34,516 nucleotides of DNA from Gonapodya prolifera JEL478. Lineage: Eukaryota; Monoblepharomycota; Monoblepharidomycetes; Monoblepharidales; Gonapodyaceae. The position numbers and the translations under genes are program-made. Below the pieces are notes generated by a model. It ran no database searches. It was not told the origin of the DNA and worked only from the letters and a program-made list of their open reading frames with translations. The stretch covers positions 25,823-60,338 of the forward strand of contig KQ965888.1 in assembly GCA_001574975.1 (NCBI GenBank), written 5' to 3'. Below are positions 6,551 to 32,689 of the stretch, in pieces; the stretch's first letter is position 1, and each line of letters opens with the position of its first letter.

Positions 6551-8327
6551 CTACTCCAACCACCCTCTATCGCCTTTAGCTTGAGACAGCAATGAGCGCC
6601 TCCTCAGTCTCACAGGTAAGCAGTCCTTGGATCCAAATCCGACAGTGATAAAGTCAGATCCGTGGACCTCCAATGTGGTGTCAAACCCTGGCGCGAGATC
6701 GTACCGCCGTACAAGGTATGCCAACACGGATAGGAGTTCTGTCCAGAAAATGTTGTTTGCATTCTTCGCCGTGTTCATGTAACAGAAGGAACCCCACCAT
6801 CCCTCGCAAAGTTGCGGCCGATGCAGTCTCTATCATGTGGGGAATCAAACGTTCGTTACGACAGGGTCAACGGGTTTACTGGTTTACTGTGCTGTGACTC
6901 GCATCAAAGTAACACTCCATCGATCTCACCTTGAACCAAGTGAAAAGGGCATGAACGCTTCTTTGCACACCGCTGTCGGGCCACTGGCAGATCCCTCAAG
7001 AACACCCTTTGCGGTGTTGTCGTCCTTGGCGATGCCCCATACCTCTTCGTCGGTAACTGTTTCGACAAGCCAGCGCTCCGGCCAGAAATCTTCCGGGCGG
7101 ATCCAGACTGATGTCAACGAAACAACAAATACGAGGTTCGCCGAGTGCAACATCAGCCACGTGTGGACATACGTTTTGAGCTCCTTTGAAGACTGTAGAT
7201 TGACACCTCGACAGTGGTACCAGCTAGAACCTCATAGCTCCTCGGTACACTTTGAAGACTGTAGATTGACACCTCGACAGTGGTACCAGCTAGAACCTCA
7301 TAGCTCCTCGGTGTACCGTCGGTATCATGCCCGACCACCGAGGTGTCTTCATCAACTCCACGGCTGACTTTTGTAACAGCTGGCGGGACCAGTAGTGTTT
7401 CCTTGATGACCGCGTTGAGCTAGGCAGCTTCTTCAGTTCAGCGAGGGCCAAAGGCTCCGTCAGCCCGTCGGGAAAAGCGTCGTTAAGCTCCTGCCGCAGC
7501 CGGTCAAGCTTTTCCGGGTGCTTGAACAGCAGATACGTAGCCCAGACAAGAGATTTGGCCGTAGTCTCGGTGCCTGCGAACATGAGAACAGCCAAGTTGA
7601 CCCGCATCTTGTCGTAAGGGAGCTTCTGATCAATTAAGAACTGTAGAATGCCGTTGATCCATGTTCCAGATCCATTCAGGCTCTCGCGCGCGACCACAAA
7701 CGACTTGAACAGTCTTTGAATCGTCCATTCTGAGTTTTGGTGGGACTGGGTGCGGTGGATTGGGAATGACAGAATGGCCGTCCCGTGTAGGCCCCAAAAG
7801 AGTGATGTTTTGATGGAGTCGATGTACACATGTGATCCGTTTGTGACGGAGTGAAGAGATTGCCAAATGCGGTTTGGGAGATGAAATCCGCAGTGACAGT
7901 CTGACAGTTATGAAAACGGGGAAAGAAAGTTGGTAACTGGGTGTTGAACACTGAAACTGCCATGAACGTCTGTTGTACACCTTCACCATGTCCAACGTCA
8001 CATAACCGTCAGCTTCTTTCGGCGCCTTCAAAATCTCTCCTCAAGCTCCACAAGCACCGCCTTCATCATAGGTTCCAAGCTGGCAAGATACTTGATTGCG
8101 AATGCTGGTGAAACCAGTGAGCGAATGCCTTTGTGTACCGCAGGGTTCCGTTCGGCAACAAGGCTCGTGGGCTCGCCTTGTGTTGCGCAAAGTCATTCAG
8201 TTGGTTTGTTCGCTCGTTCCTCCCGCATGTGAGAGGGGAAGGTCGACAATATTTGACGCACATCACGGAGACGATCTCAAAGGCGGTCGTAGAAGCTTGA
8301 CTTTGGAATGTCGTCTATACCAAGAAG
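6551..8327 (-). pseudogene. Cytochrome P450 (fungal microsomal type), frame-disrupted
   Basis: P450s are haem mono-oxygenases, normally ER-anchored. Reading down the minus strand: a PKSSFYD segment, LVAERNPAVHKGIRSLVSPAF (B'-C region), TADFISQTAFGN, the I-helix oxygen motif AGTETT (about 7590), the K-helix region NAVIKETL, the meander FWPERW, and the Cys-ligand loop FSLGSRDCIG across an intron, then LAYLVRRYDL near the end. At least three single-base frame breaks interrupt the body (near 8043, 7840 and 7425), and an in-frame stop lies near 8297. The K-helix reads ETLL, so the ExxR Arg is missing. A 66-bp in-frame duplication (7184-7312) repeats the strand after the K-helix. The haem loop and several introns are still well formed, so decay is recent or some breaks are assembly errors. 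No N-terminal membrane anchor was found. It ends 17 nt before the proposed BDP1 start. Confidence 0.82.
7184..7312. repeat. 66-bp in-frame tandem duplication inside the P450
   Basis: Two copies of a 63-bp identical core (7184-7246 and 7250-7312) stand at a 66-bp period. On the minus strand each encodes RSYEVLAGTTVEVSIYSLQ, the strand segment following the K-helix. The duplication keeps frame (22 codons). The identity of the copies suggests a recent event. Confidence 0.95.
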
Positions 8328-11113: not shown

Positions 11114-13922
11114 TTACTTCCGCGATTTGCTGGCACTTTTCCGTCGCTTCGCTGGAGGTTCCTGAACAGAATCGTCGACGTCGTCTCCATCTTCATCGTG
11201 ATCCAACCTTTCCGCTTGCTGCTTCTCCCAAAGCTTCATCCTCACCTCCCACATTGCTCCCGCCACCTCAGCACCCCTCTTGCGCTCAAAGCTCTTCCAA
11301 GCATTACCGTTGGGACGTTCCGACCGTTTCAGACGCCCGTCCAAATCTAAAACGGCATTCTCAAGGGTGGACAGTGAGTCCATTTGCTTTGTTGTCAAAG
11401 TTTTGTTTCGAACATCCAGAGACGCGGTGAACGTCCCCTTCGCCGTAATAGAAGTAATCTATAGAGTGGTGGCACAAAAGTTCTGTGATTCTGAACAAAC
11501 TGAAAACGGATTTCAACACACCGTCGCGCTTCCCCGAACATCAATGCCTCTCAAGCCTCGCGCGTATATGAGCGTATCGCCGGTTCGTAGTTCATTCGCC
11601 GCAATAAGGTCGCGAAGTGAAAGGGCCGCGGAGGCACTGCGTTGTTGCAAGACCAATGTAAGGATAGTATCATAGTCCCCCTAAACAGAACATAGAAACC
11701 CACCCTGCAACGGCAATTTTTCTCTTTTCCCCACTCTCACCCCACCATGCTTCATACTCGTCATCTTTCAAGTTGACCCCTTCTTCCTCGCGTTGCCACT
11801 GCTCGAAAAGCTCTGTGTAGCTTTCCTCAAATTGGCCGAGTCGCAATGATTGCAGCCACGATTCGGCGTCTTCCATGAGGAAATTGTTGTGTTTTATTGC
11901 ATGCTGCAGACTTTTTAGAGCGTCTTCGTCACCGCCCACGGCATTAATGAAGGCATTGGCTCGACTGTCGATGTTCTCATCCGTAGGGACGTCGAAGGAT
12001 TCCTGGTTAAGTCCCGGTAATACGCCCCTTTCAATGAGTTTGCTGAAGTAACTTGAAACAAAAGGGGTGTAGTCATGTTTTCGGCGAACGTTTTCTTGCT
12101 AACAATAATCCGAACTGGTCAGCCAACACGTTGAAATCATGAAATCGGCTATACTACCAACCGCTTGCTGATCTTGGGTTTCCTTTTCACTATTGACGTC
12201 CCGTCGAGCTGCTTCCAACTTTTCCTCCAATTGTTTAATCTGCTCCTCGGCACTTCCAGTGGTGTCGATTGCGATCTCATCATCCTGGCCTTCTACGGCA
12301 TCAATCTCCATACTCAATCCTTCCTGGTCCTGACCATCTTCTGGAAGCCTAAGGGTTTTCCTCAACTCTGAGCGTCTGAGTAGGAGCTTGCGAAGGCGGA
12401 GTTGCAAACGAGGAAGACGTTCTGGAACAATAGCCAGCAAAGACGTAGTAATCTCCTTATCCTCGAACCTTAACGAGAGAGCAGTCAGACGGCCACTTTT
12501 GTACGCGAATGAAGAATGTAACTCACGCCGCCATCTTCTTCTGTAACCGAGGCACCACCAGATCGAGCCACCCAAGACTTTGCTTGTTCGATTCCTTTCC
12601 GCGTGCTGTCCCTGTCGACGTTTCGTCGATGTTCTCGCCCTGACTAAGAGTGCCGACTTCGACCGGTCCTCGCCTTAAACCGTCAAGCTCCCAAACAATT
12701 CCCTTCGATTCGACGTACACAATGTAGTGGAACACGTCCTGGTCTGTAAGGACGAAAGTTTCCTCCTCCTCCTCCTCGTCTTCATCTTTCGATTTTGACT
12801 TTGACTTTTTGGCCTTTCGAGGGCTTGCATTCTCAACAACTTCAAACAGATTGGCATAGCGTGGGTGAGCCTCGAATTCCTGTCTGCGGAGAGCAAGAAG
12901 ATCGCTGGGGCGCGCGAAAGAGTTGTGTATTTCCCTGAGTGTTGGGCTATTGGCGATTGTTTCACCTTTCAACTGGAAACAAAAGAGATAATGTGAGCAG
13001 ATTGGGGATTGCAAGTGGTTCCTCCAACTAAACTCACCGCAGGAGTGAATCCTTCGGTGAACTCCCTGTATCCCTCCAGCAAGCCTCCAAGTTCGACTCC
13101 GGGTCGTCCTCTTAAGTTCATGACAATATTCATTACTGCATAAGTACCGCAAGCATTATTCTGAACTTGATTTGCGAAGAATAGCTCCGGCGGAAGGTCC
13201 GTTTCGCCAACGACAAAATCTCTCGGGTCCGTCGGGACTTTGTAAAGAAAAATAAGTCCATGGATCGTTCTGTAGATGGTATTAATTAGCTTCCCATGGA
13301 TTCCACCATCTGATTCTCCTTTGAGCACTCCTCAGAGTGCCACTCACCCCACGTCTCGCAGGTACCCCTCTTCCAGCGTGTACAGCTCCTCTGCCTGTAG
13401 ACCTTTTACTCCATAACCTCGAAGCAGACCAGTGAATACACCTGTCATCCAGATCACATGATTCGATTCGGTTGCAGAAGAGGTGATTCACTGTAAATCG
13501 ATTGAACCGAGGGAAAGGTGTTTAGGTCCCACCTGGATCCGAGACAGTCAAGCACCAGTTGCCTAAGATGGAGACTCAGCATCGATGGATGACTAGCGTT
13601 CGTGGATGGATGACCAACCTCCCACGAGTGAAAGCCCACTCTTCGTTTCAGTGGGATCAACATCGCGCTGCTTTGCCTTCCCTTTCTCTTTCCTTGTTTC
13701 GTCCGGTTGCTTTTCTGGCTCCGCGGCGGATGCCGTATCTTCCATTTGAACACCATTCGAGGGTGGTGACTCCTTCCCAATTTCTGGTGAATCGAGAGCT
13801 AGACCATTCGAAGAAGACTCATGTGGATCTATTGGCTCCATGGGTGTGTCTTCCGGAGCGGTGTTGTCCATTGCAAGTGATTGAAGAGCAATCTTGCACA
13901 CCGTCACTCTAACAAGCTTCAT
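11114..13922 (-). CDS. UCH37/UCHL5-type ubiquitin C-terminal hydrolase with C-terminal RAMA-like domain
   Basis: Peptidase C12 cysteine protease that removes ubiquitin; UCH37 acts with the proteasome or chromatin complexes. Nine exons in continuous phase give about 755 residues: 13619-13922, 13533-13562 (30 nt), 13348-13441, 13038-13269, 12527-12972, 12162-12468, 11704-12098, 11522-11636 and 11114-11458. Start may instead be Met at 13871. Visible motifs: NWCLTVSDPGVFTGLL, oxyanion Gln177 and catalytic Cys183 in NQVQNNACGTYAV, REIHNSFARP, His302 in DVFHYIVYV and Asp317 in WELDGL. A Lys/Ser then Asp/Glu insert (about 273-291) sits in the active-site region. The UCH37 tail motif NVRRKHDYTPFV follows at about 474. 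Animal UCHL5 ends soon after this (about 330 residues); here another 270 follow. Residues about 604-715 (SLRDLIAANELRTGDTL, SLSTLENAV, NGNAWKSFE) resemble a RAMA domain. The C-terminus is acidic, then an NLS-like PPAKRRKSASKSRK. Flanking genes give no functional clue. Confidence 0.9.
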
Positions 13923-26192: not shown

Positions 26193-28475
26193 ATGTACAG
26201 TTGGATCAATCTTTCAGTGGAGAGGTATGCACTAGTTGTCGCTGCGAAAGGATTGGGCCGGCATTCAAGCGTTCTTCCACTTCAGCTTCGTCATCGAGAA
26301 ATATGGAATCGATGCATGGGAAGCCATCAAGAAAGAGGCTGGCTGTCTGGTGCCGAATGGAGGATTTGCTCTGAAACTAGAAGTAAGTTCGGCGATCGAG
26401 GACGAACACACCAAGAGGCGCCAGTCACAGAGGCGGTCTGTATTGCATCTACATAGTATCTTGATGATTCGGAGACAGTTTCTCTTGTAGTCGCTGGGGC
26501 GAAGCTTCTCGGCGTGGATGCATCTGTGGTATTGGAGGCCTTCGGAAAGTACTTTGTCCACTTTGTGATAAAGAATGGCTATGGAGGATTACTCAAGGTA
26601 CCCTCTTATCTTTGCGCGTGTGCGAGATGTTCAACTTGACTGCAATTCGATCTATCTACAGGCCCAAGGAACGGATCTTCGATCCTTCATCTCGAATTTG
26701 AATAGTCTCCACGCTCATCTCGCAGCCAATGCATTTCCGGAAATGCTCCCCCCTGGATTTGAAGTTACAAATGGGGCCGAACAGCCGCGGCCGCTGGCGC
26801 CCGATGAGTTCGTGATCAAGTATTCAAGTCGACGGGACGGTCTCTACCCTCTTGCGATCGGAGTTCTCACAGAAGCGTCACGAATGCTGTTCGAGAAAGA
26901 TATTACTTGCACTCTCATTCGGACGGAGAAGGTGGCAACTATGGATCAGCGTGCAGGAGCCTTGAAACCACAAAACGATACATTCTTGCTGATCAAAATG
27001 CTCGACGACTCGGCACCTGGAGTCGAATTACGTGAAGCCAGAAAGGCATCTGCCTCGATTCGTGGCTCGTTGTCCTGCCCTGCGCTGGATGGCCATAGCA
27101 TAGCAGAGCCCGGTTCTGTACCACGGAAGGATGCTGTGGAGCTCTTCCCATTTCACCTTTCGTTTGACAAAGATTTGCGGATTGTTTCCATGGGATGCAA
27201 AGTTCAAGACATCGCAAACCGTGTTCGCTCCTCTAAAGAATCTCTTAAGGGGAAACTGATCAGCGACGTGTTCGAAATAACGAGTCCGAGTGACACCAAG
27301 TGGGATGCGGAGAGCTTGCGAACCCAAGCGAAAGACACCGCGTATACCGTTCGGTTGAATTCTTGGGCGGAAGCAATGACCCCGCTCGAACTCACGGGGC
27401 AGATTTACTTCATGTCTTCTGAGATCTACGTCTTCATATGCTCTCCGTCTTGCTCGTCGGTGGACGATCTAGTAGCACTGGGCTTACAATTGTTTGATAT
27501 ACCCGCGCACGATAAAACACGGGAGCTGATTCTTATGAATGAAAGACTTCGTGCTGAGGTCGATCGAAATGAACGACTTGAGAAGGAGACGAAGAGCATG
27601 TCGACGAAACGGAGAAGCAAGATTGCTACTGATGCATCAGCGGAACTGGTTGGTGTTCCGTGACTTCAACACGTATGGTTCGACCGCTTAGCGACTGATT
27701 TCGCGCATGTACGATGCAGCTCCGCTACCTCAACGTCCAAAGTGCCGTAGAAGTATTCTGGCTCATTGTTGGCATTGTCGACATCGTTTTACTCGCTGTT
27801 TCAGGCTTGCAAGCGGCTCTTGCTCAAGACGCCGCGTTCGGAGTTCAGCGTGCGGTCGTTATTGCGTTCGCTTTCTTCGCAGCCCTTTGCGTCCTGGTCA
27901 AGATATCCATGACCGTATTGAGAGCGCGCAGTCTCAGGACGAAGATGATCGAGTCGCGGACCGGGAGGATCGAACTCCACCTTCCGACGGCAGGGTTAGA
28001 ACTGGGGACAGGAGAAGGTGGTCAAGCGTCCATGTCCAAGGCGTATGGAAAGATCAAGCAGCTCGACTATGATATTGAAGCTTCGAATCGCCGCCTTATT
28101 GGCCAACTTCCAAATCTGCCGCTATTGTGTATCCAAGGTTTCATCGCATTTACTGGATTGGGAGCGGCCGATGTGACTCCACAGCTCAAAATCTCCCTTA
28201 TTCTCGGAGCCGTCACGATTGGTGCCCACCTGCAACTCTTCACGCGCGTCGTCCAGCTTCAGACGGAGCGGGCGAGTCTTCTTGTCAAGATCCAGAAGGA
28301 GGAGGTCGACAAGGTTGAGATTCGGGCAACAAACGAGAAGGCTGTCATGGAAATGCTTGGAAAAGTGGTCAATGGGTTCGCGAGGACCAAATCGATCTCG
28401 GCGCAGGGAGGGGCGGCTCCCATTGTGGCAAGTCGGCGACGGGATACGTTGGAGGTTCCCAATGTTCGCGTTTAG
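26193..28475 (+). CDS. Soluble-guanylate-cyclase-like H-NOX/HNOBA haem sensor without cyclase domain, with C-terminal membrane region
   Basis: Five exons (26193-26224, 26286-26382, 26457-26597, 26662-27648, 27720-28475) keep phase throughout and give 670 residues. H-NOX (1 to about 190) begins MYSWINLSVESFVIEKYG and AWEAIKKEAG, as in cyclase beta subunits. Then come VVLEAFGKYFVHFV, the proximal haem ligand His107 in NLNSLHAHL (animal beta1 uses His105) and the propionate motif Tyr144-x-Ser146-x-Arg148. HNOBA (about 252-375) shows FPFHLSFDKDLRIV, FICSPSCSSVDDL and LQLFDIPAHDKTRELIL, followed by a coiled coil (about 378-405). No class III cyclase catalytic domain follows. Exon 5 encodes four hydrophobic segments (about 431-453, 463-486, 552-569, 575-593), a charged helical linker and a basic tail. 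H-NOX binds NO or O2; a sensor with unknown membrane output is inferred. The last intron (27649-27719) uses a GTTGGT donor. Unspliced, translation stops at 27661 and exon 5 would need its own ATG at 27714. Confidence 0.9.
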
Positions 28476-30060: not shown

Positions 30061-30336
30061 ATGCCTCCACAACAAACGAAACGGTGGCGCCTCGTCTACG
30101 GGCCCCAAGTCGAATCTCGACACCTCATTCACCGACAGTTCGGGTCCGGGGTCAAGTTACACCCTCCCTCGCGTTCTAGGGAACTATCTCGTGCTCAGAA
30201 GGGGCACCAGCGCGAACGATCGCATGTGGAGTTCCACGAGAGTCGATCTGAGCTCCTGGGATACTGTAATTTTGCGCGGACTGTAATGCGTCTCTGCGAG
30301 GAGCAGGGGCTCAATCTCACACCAACATCGGTGTGA
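30061..30336 (+). CDS. Small basic hypothetical protein
   Basis: A 91-codon single-exon frame starting MPPQQTKRWRLVYGPQVESR and ending CEEQGLNLTPTSV. It has GC-rich third positions over its length, an uninterrupted frame, and many Arg/His. The same frame stays open upstream to 29935, so the start is a guess. No domain is recognised; a second frame over the same DNA is also open for much of the length. Confidence 0.3.
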   Translation: MPPQQTKRWRLVYGPQVESRHLIHRQFGSGVKLHPPSRSRELSRAQKGHQRERSHVEFHESRSELLGYCNFARTVMRLCEEQGLNLTPTSV

Positions 30337-31131: not shown

Positions 31132-31345
31132 TTCAATTCCACCCGGCCGTTGCACTGCATTTTACACGATAACTCCCAAGGAGACTGGAAAGCTAGACGT
31201 GACTACAACCACAGGGTGCCCAGGTGGTGCAAGCAACAGCCTACCCACGTCCACGACCGGAGTACGGAGTGTGGTTCACAGGCTGTCCTCGGCCAAACCC
31301 AGGACAAATGGATATACATGAAGAAAGTCCGCAATTCATTGCACC

Positions 31346-32689
31346 ATGGCACCAGCATCCCACACAGGACCCATCAACCTTGGCATCGCTCGTCGCGTTT
31401 GCCTCGTCACGGGAGGGGCGAGTGGATTTGGCGCGGCGCTCGCGGAGAAGTTAGCTCGGGCGGTGGGTTCCTTCTACGACACGCTGGTCGACATCAACGC
31501 TTATACCCACACGATCTCGGCCTCAAAGGGTGCCATCGTTGCTATCGCAGACAGAAATGAGGAGCTAGGACGGAAATTGGTCCAGGAGTTCGAGGAAAGG
31601 TGGGGTCGTCGCAAAAGCCGTGCTATCACTTTTGGTTGACGGATTCCCTGATTCGGATGTCAGATATGCTGGAGAACTCGATATTGGGTTTTTCATGTGC
31701 GTGTGGATGTCTCTCTCGTGCCCAGGTCAAAGGTGACCAAGTGCTGCAGGTTTATCAAAGTTGACCTTTCTAAACTGGACGAAGTAAAGCGCATGGTTGA
31801 TGCAGTCGTGAGGCGCTATGGTACTATTGATGTGGGTGTCTCCTGCCTTTTGTACGACGCAAACGTGCCTCGCCAACTATCCTTCCTCGTAGGTTTTGGT
31901 CAACAATGCCGGAATCGGGGACGGAGACACGTACGTTATGTCGCCATTTTCTTCCCGTTCTGGCACCTCACATTTTTATTTAGCTGGTTCCAACAGGGGA
32001 ACTCCCAGCGCTGGGTGAGTGTTGCAAGCTCAAACATCCGTCATACTTCCACCCACCCACCCCCTGCAAGGTTGAGACTTTCGGCGTCAACATCCATGCC
32101 GCAATCTACGCAACCCAATTGGTTATAAACGAGATCTGGAAGCAGCCGGAACGTCAGAATCGCGGAGGTGTCGTTGTTAATACGGCATCAATGGCAGCAT
32201 TTGACCCACCCGCACCCGTCTACGTGAGTCCCGCTCTTTGCGCCACACAAAACTTTACAATCCATTTGCGCGGTTCCAAAGGGCGCCACGAAAGCCGCCG
32301 TCGTTGCATTCACTCGTGCGCTCGCGTCGCTCGCCAAATCCCACAACATCCGTGTAAACTGCGTGTGCCCAGCGGCAAGCCCGACTCCTCTCTTGCTTAG
32401 CGGCATGAATCAGCCTCAACTGAAAGAGACCTACGAGAAGTTCCTAAAGGGGGGCTGGACGGTGCCTGTGGATCTCGTCGCGGAGGGTCTACTGTATGCT
32501 ATTGTGGACACCACACTGGCCGGTAAGTGCTTAAGTTGGGCGCCTCGAGTAGCTATAGTTGATAGCCAAATTGTGTTCATCACCGCGAAAGGTGCTGTCA
32601 TTCGTGTCCTACCGAAGAATGGCATTGAACTGTATGACTACAAAATTTCGAAGGGGGTGAAAGCTGAGTGGCCCCGACAGAAATTGTAA
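31346..32689 (+). CDS. Short-chain dehydrogenase/reductase, classical SDR
   Basis: NAD(P)-dependent oxidoreductase with a Rossmann fold. Eight exons (31346-31462, 31529-31599, 31750-31831, 31893-31930, 31984-32014, 32071-32223, 32282-32522, 32592-32689) keep phase and give 276 residues, the normal length. Visible motifs: nucleotide-binding TGGASGFG (22-29), acidic Asp47 in AIADRNEE, which favours NAD over NADP, NNAG (94-97), structural Asn120, and the catalytic Ser153, Tyr164 and Lys168 (NTASMAAF; Y-GATK split by an intron). NIRVNCVCPAA and a GAVIRVLP end match the family. The layout resembles 15-hydroxyprostaglandin-dehydrogenase-like SDRs; substrate unknown. The ATG context (CACCATGG) is good. 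The second intron (31600-31749, donor GTGGGG) is the least certain: this splice leaves a slightly short beta3 loop. A ~100-bp direct repeat flanks the gene. Confidence 0.9.

Follow-up and report, generated by a model that had tools for sequence, protein, structure and literature searches.

In Gonapodya prolifera JEL478, the arrangement of a sensor of the soluble guanylate cyclase (sGC) type and a membrane region within a single predicted gene is well supported by sequence, the base of this support being one intact gene in one genome. The analysed window, 34,516 nt in length, corresponds to bases 25823-60338 of contig C158 in the 47.6-Mb assembly, and the gene lies on the + strand at window positions 26193-28475 (C158:52015-54297). 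As the original prediction had proposed, five exons splice in frame, giving 670 codons and a stop with no internal stop codon, and all four introns are of the GT..AG type (Table 1). The gene's own frame had the best codon score of the six frames in all 6 parts tested, scored against a codon-usage reference of 1,455 codons taken from the rhodopsin- and GAF-cyclase genes of this genome.

Table 1. Features of the predicted gene, in window positions.
Feature	Position	Strand	Content	Basis
Exon 1	26193..26224	+	Start codon, MYSWINLSVES	Frame; gapless alignment with sGC beta-1 N terminus
Exon 2	26286..26382	+	HNOB domain	Frame, Pfam, sGC beta-1 alignment
Exon 3	26457..26597	+	HNOB domain	Frame, Pfam; found in C38 copy, exon-3 end in C73 fragment
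Exon 4	26662..27648	+	HNOB end (His107, YSSRR), linker, HNOBA, putative start of signalling coil	Frame, Pfam, sGC beta-1 alignment; pieces in C73 and C38 copies
Intron 4	27649..27719	+	71 nt, GTTGGT...CTGAT...TGCAG	Donor and acceptor comparison with copies; indel-rich between copies
Exon 5, part common to decayed copies	27720..28192	+	Hydrophobic segments 1-3 and charged loop	
Exon 5 tail	28193..28475	+	Hydrophobic segment 4, long C-terminal helix, stop	Codon score, hydropathy, low-confidence models

Sensor half of the predicted protein

The N-terminal half had been read from the letters alone as an H-NOX domain with His107 and a Y-x-S-x-R motif, followed by HNOBA, and Pfam domain search recovered both domains far above their cut-offs. 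HNOB (PF07700) covered residues 2-173 with an E value of 1.8e-33 (116.2 bits against a cut-off of 25.5, profile positions 1-161 of 163), and HNOBA (PF07701) covered residues 243-408 with an E value of 6.1e-29 (101.5 bits against a cut-off of 23.4). The absence of a cyclase behind the sensor was likewise borne out, as Guanylate_cyc gave no Pfam match anywhere in the 670 residues at E values up to 10, and neither the methyl-accepting signalling domain nor Bac_rhodopsin had a Pfam match in the 670-residue protein.

In a sequence search of PDB, the best match of the sensor half was sGC beta-1 (6jt0_B, E 1e-42), with bacterial H-NOX proteins ranking lower (2.3e-23 and weaker) and sGC alpha-1 being matched via the HNOBA part. 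His107, within LHAHL, aligned with the position of the beta-1 haem ligand, the proximal His, and Y144-S-S-R-R148 aligned with the Y-x-S-x-R motif of sGC beta-1. Counted along the same alignment, Leu154 stands opposite beta-1 Ile145. O2-binding H-NOX proteins carry Tyr at this position, and because Leu154 and not Tyr occupies the distal position here, the ligand predicted from sequence is likelier to be NO than O2. Of the earlier proposal of a membrane-tethered NO/O2 sensor, the sGC-beta-type sensor fused to a hydrophobic region without a cyclase therefore stands, while its ligand would, given Leu154, more probably be NO. The sGC beta-1 alignment reached residue 403, and the heptads of residues 373-419 were only moderate, with 0.46 of the a/d positions being hydrophobic. 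The sequence comparisons support the presence of the sensor domains in the predicted gene, their fusion to the membrane part and the lack of a cyclase domain; haem, NO binding, topology and output of the protein we infer.

Predicted membrane part encoded by exon 5

Exon 5 had been described as adding four hydrophobic segments. When the 19-mers of the protein were ranked by the octanol scale, these four came out as the most favourable to the membrane. On the Kyte-Doolittle scale two of them were strong (2.54 and 2.56), and segments 3 and 4 were weaker (1.59 and 1.50), falling below a stretch within HNOB (residue 51) that scored 1.89; we are therefore less sure of segments 3 and 4 than of segments 1 and 2. 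The first segment begins 11 residues past the exon 4-5 junction. Five K/R residues are found directly behind segment 2, a distribution of charge that suits a cytosolic middle loop, and therefore a predicted topology with both ends of the protein in the cytosol.

AlphaFold2 models of the membrane part contained five helices, the last of which was segment 4 extending into a long C-terminal helix, and were of low confidence (mean pLDDT of 58 with the single sequence and 65.4 with a nine-row alignment). Membership of the module in a known family was considered and rejected: no Pfam family matched above its cut-off, with HemY_N staying below it at an E value of 0.16, and no PDB sequence matched at E values up to 10. 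Foldseek searches with both models returned no match at E <= 0.001 (0 of 186 and 0 of 265). Among the 50 matches listed by VIA-align, Z values reached 10.1 over 74-141 aligned residues of long-helix and bundle proteins, a range that the tool itself calls common and that was obtained with models of low confidence. Similarly, no match to the membrane part was confirmed among 105 stretches of the bacterial and archaeal set genome_contigs or among 10 stretches of viral_contigs, and none to exon 4 was confirmed among 3 stretches of viral_contigs; no intact relative of the gene turned up in this genome or in these collections.

Decayed copies and the exon 4-5 join

When exon 5 was used as the query against the genome, the window gene was recovered together with seven other matches, which fall into three loci at C73:242 kb, C38:2.7 kb and C32:392 kb. 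The copies extend over C73:241.4-242.4 kb, C38:2.6-4.0 kb and C32:391.98-392.34 kb, and all three contain stops or frame changes. Additional searches with exon 4 and at the DNA level showed that the C73 and C38 copies also retain pieces of the sensor and the coil region ahead of the membrane part, arranged and oriented as in the window gene, while the C32 copy meets the contig end before any sensor part. A further fragment at C73:254.7 kb reaches from the last part of exon 3 across intron 3 and just into exon 4, and exons 1 and 2 had no match in any decayed copy. A separate gene for the sensor alone at another genomic site was rejected as a candidate, the matches found being confined to this gene, its decayed pieces and a single weak hit on C56 (E 0.301). 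The copies represent related segments and not independent species; their common order shows the arrangement to be older than the duplications, which does not make it widespread.

In all three copies the similarity to the gene breaks off at window 28192-28193, so that the final 94 residues (577-670), which include segment 4 and the C-terminal helix, are represented by the window only. For these last 94 residues the gene's frame was again the best of six on codon usage (0.162 compared to 0.02 for the next), a score close to the 95th percentile (0.164) of open 94-codon frames in window positions 1-25000. Since the 3′ flank of the C32 copy matches window 30062-30149 (78% alike), the difference between copies and window amounts to a replacement of about 1.9 kb, either by loss in the copies or by gain in the window, and window 30062-30149 probably belongs to the duplicated segment or to a repeat.

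Two further features of these loci were observed. The C38 copy (C38:2649-4012) is stripped of CpG, with an observed/expected ratio of 0.14 compared to 1.14 for the window gene, 1.14 for C73 and 0.83 for C32, as after methylation-driven or RIP-like C-to-T decay, which is not the case in C73 or C32. In addition, all five places with the gene or its pieces (C158, two on C73, C38 and C32) are less than 14 kb from a contig end, as for a subtelomeric family or for an assembly broken at repeats; the final 3 kb of the window contain neither TTAGGG nor CCCTAA and so give no sign of a nearby telomere. The contig-end placement, and the decay of all three other copies examined, could suggest that the gene in the window is dying as well, a functionless last member of a decaying family. 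Against this stand 670 open codons, four GT..AG introns and the best score of the gene's own frame in every part tested, and we regard a dying gene as the least probable of the readings considered here.

Read without splicing, exon 4 continues for 4 extra codons to a stop at 27661-27663, giving a protein of 423 residues. Joinability alone was rejected as proof that intron 4 is spliced, as 22 looser GT..AG pairs also keep the frame open; because it proves little, we used the copies and a stricter chance control. With the control restricted to introns of the form GTNNGT..YAG, 45-140 nt in length and near the stop of the run, 1 of 55 forward open runs (at least 100 codons) in the window could be extended by 251 codons, and this was the gene itself, the next best extension being 80. 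A CTGAT branch-like motif is located some 22 nt upstream of the 3′ end of intron 4, and intron 3 has a looser motif at 23 nt. We give the CTGAT motif little weight as evidence of splicing because introns 1 and 2 are without one.

The splice sites were then compared with the two copies covering intron 4. Window, C73 and C38 all have the acceptor TGCAG^CTC; the donor reads GTTGGT in the window and GTAAGT in C73, and is a broken site in C38. Between the window and C73, intron 4 showed 0.239 gaps per site versus 0.023 in exons 4-5 (p 5e-11), and between the window and C38, 0.085 versus 0.033 (p 0.04). Identity to C73 was lower in intron 4 (0.644) than in the exons (0.794, p 0.013), while for C38 it was not clearly lower (0.652 versus 0.730, p 0.17). 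All of these copy comparisons, and those by codon position below, share one intact window gene and are thus not independent of each other.

Differences in exon 5 fell mainly on third codon positions, being 27, 20 and 53 at positions 1, 2 and 3 for C73 (p 1.2e-4), 29, 23 and 65 for C38 (p 1.5e-6), and 20, 15 and 41 for C32 (p 5.1e-4). The third-position excess was thus seen in 3 of 3 copies for exon 5, and in 2 of 2 for exon 4, with 22, 19 and 37 differences for C73 (p 0.026) and 44, 39 and 75 for C38 (p 0.0011). Exon 3 compared with C38 showed no such excess (14, 9 and 10, p 0.49). This pattern of substitution argues that exon 5 has evolved as protein.

Two readings of the locus depend on whether intron 4 is removed. 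The first is that the intron is sometimes kept, so that one locus would give both a 423-residue soluble sensor and the membrane form. The early stop of the unspliced frame would allow this, and the window donor GTTGGT, which is off the commonest form, looks weaker than the GTAAGT of C73; however, the stop at 27661 does not occur at the same place in either C73 or C38, and we think two products quite unlikely. The second places two adjacent genes at the locus, one for a soluble HNOB-HNOBA protein and one for a membrane protein that starts at ATG 27714. An in-frame ATG does lie at 27714-27716, just before the acceptor, C38 also has ATG there, and segmental copies would preserve the order of two neighbours equally well. 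On the other hand, just 50 nt would separate the stop from this ATG, the ATG is GTG in C73, and indels are frequent in the spacer but have spared the acceptor; the GTAAGT at the C73 donor, and the lack of a stop at the corresponding place in C73 and C38, also speak against a gene boundary. A pair of neighbouring genes seems highly improbable to us, and on these comparisons a separate gene with its protein ending at 27661 is disfavoured, while the exon 4-5 join of the predicted gene model has gained support.

Genome context and proposed function

Class III cyclase domains gave 7 matches in the genome, which we read as 5 genes. Two tandem genes at C1:1418333-1422307 each have a bacteriorhodopsin-like stretch upstream of the class III cyclase domain, the cyclase gene on C7 has GAF domains, and two weaker matches were found on C92 and C35. 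None of the 7 was on C158 in this search of an assembly with gaps. A hidden downstream or missed cyclase was rejected as a candidate, with none found by Pfam in the gene and none on C158 of the gapped assembly. A gene for an NO synthase, comprising oxygenase, flavodoxin and FAD/NAD-binding parts, was located at C9:132500-138500, and is the likely source of NO. Elsewhere in the window, a ubiquitin C-terminal hydrolase gene (Peptidase_C12 and UCH_C matches) lies at 11673-13331 (-), a cytochrome P450 exon at 7293-7907 (-), and a short-chain dehydrogenase gene of several exons, of which two stretches were matched, at 31322-32686 (+).

The predicted protein has HNOB with proximal His and Y-x-S-x-R, HNOBA and the presumed coil start in the order of sGC beta-1, and differs from it in having a hydrophobic multi-segment exon in place of the catalytic cyclase. 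A search of the gapped assembly with a first-look filter found no second HNOB or HNOBA gene as a candidate for an alpha-subunit partner, the one of each being this gene. Outside nucleotide cyclases, where it forms the front end, the eukaryotic HNOB-HNOBA pair is not known to occur. No eukaryotic HNOB-HNOBA-membrane protein, or other output of a eukaryotic HNOB-HNOBA pair, was found among the papers listed and the passages accessible in the open-access literature, where searches for H-NOX together with fungi, chytrids and guanylate cyclase, and for NO synthase, chytrid and guanylate cyclase together, also found nothing. HNOB is reportedly present in archaeal two-component systems.

H-NOX chemotaxis receptors carry membrane segments. 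Fusions of bacterial H-NOX to chemotaxis receptors occur in obligate anaerobes, according to the accessible part of PMC8196705. These receptors resemble the present protein in joining an H-NOX sensor to an output other than a cyclase, whereas the present protein has HNOBA and a distal Leu, and no methyl-accepting domain was found in it. Rhodopsin-guanylyl cyclase fusions are described for zoosporic fungi of Blastocladiomycota and Chytridiomycota in the portions available of PMC4046227, PMC9616733 and PMC7655827. They are similar in recombining sensor, coil and membrane modules, come from organisms of the same kind, and are represented by two genes in this genome, but their membrane part senses light and their output is a cyclase, while the present protein has a haem-type sensor and no cyclase. 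Membrane guanylate cyclases of placozoans with NIT domains, for which the accessible text of PMC7400543 gives nitrogen-oxide sensing as a proposal, are comparable in their proposed sensing at the membrane; they have NIT and not HNOB, two membrane segments flanking the sensor, and a cyclase.

We lean slightly towards a reading in which a haem receptor for NO, anchored in the membrane and with its output via the membrane module, is the product of this single gene. Activation of sGC starts with NO on the beta haem. The cytosolic N-terminal half would correspond to the sensory half of sGC beta, with HNOB holding haem via His107 and NO breaking or loosening that bond, and HNOBA and the helix behind it would relay the movement. 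As described in the available part of PMC8196705, the cyclase domains of sGC shift and their site opens when the coil rotates; the coil helix, which moves a cyclase there, would here lead into hydrophobic segment 1. In the four-segment membrane module, the charged middle loop and the two termini would face the cytosol, and NO may alter how the membrane helices pack or assemble so that a pore or docking surface is changed. A more specific version, namely a cGMP-free receptor of the sGC-beta type in which NO from the organism's own synthase gates a multi-pass membrane protein (a channel or switch) and the cyclases are kept for light, is a tentative possibility that we find doubtful.

The chief rival with a known mechanism is pairing in trans with a separate cyclase. 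The membrane part would then be an anchor, and the coil would pair with the coil of a rhodopsin- or GAF-linked cyclase, letting NO tune cGMP or cAMP. The two tandem rhodopsin-cyclase genes and the GAF-cyclase gene of this genome could provide such a partner, and the coil of a fungal rhodopsin-cyclase has been modelled on the sGC coil, as stated in the accessible portion of PMC4046227. However, a plain anchor requires one segment and not four, and the membrane part shows the protein-like evolution described above; we judge pairing in trans to be unlikely.

If the membrane-anchored NO receptor is real, this would be a fungus that has both NO synthase and a haem-based sensor for NO but in which no NO-driven cyclase was found, and cGMP-free NO signalling in fungi would therefore become directly testable. 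If the reading is true, the sensory half of sGC would be a portable part able to drive membrane helices, which may be useful for building NO-controlled membrane proteins.
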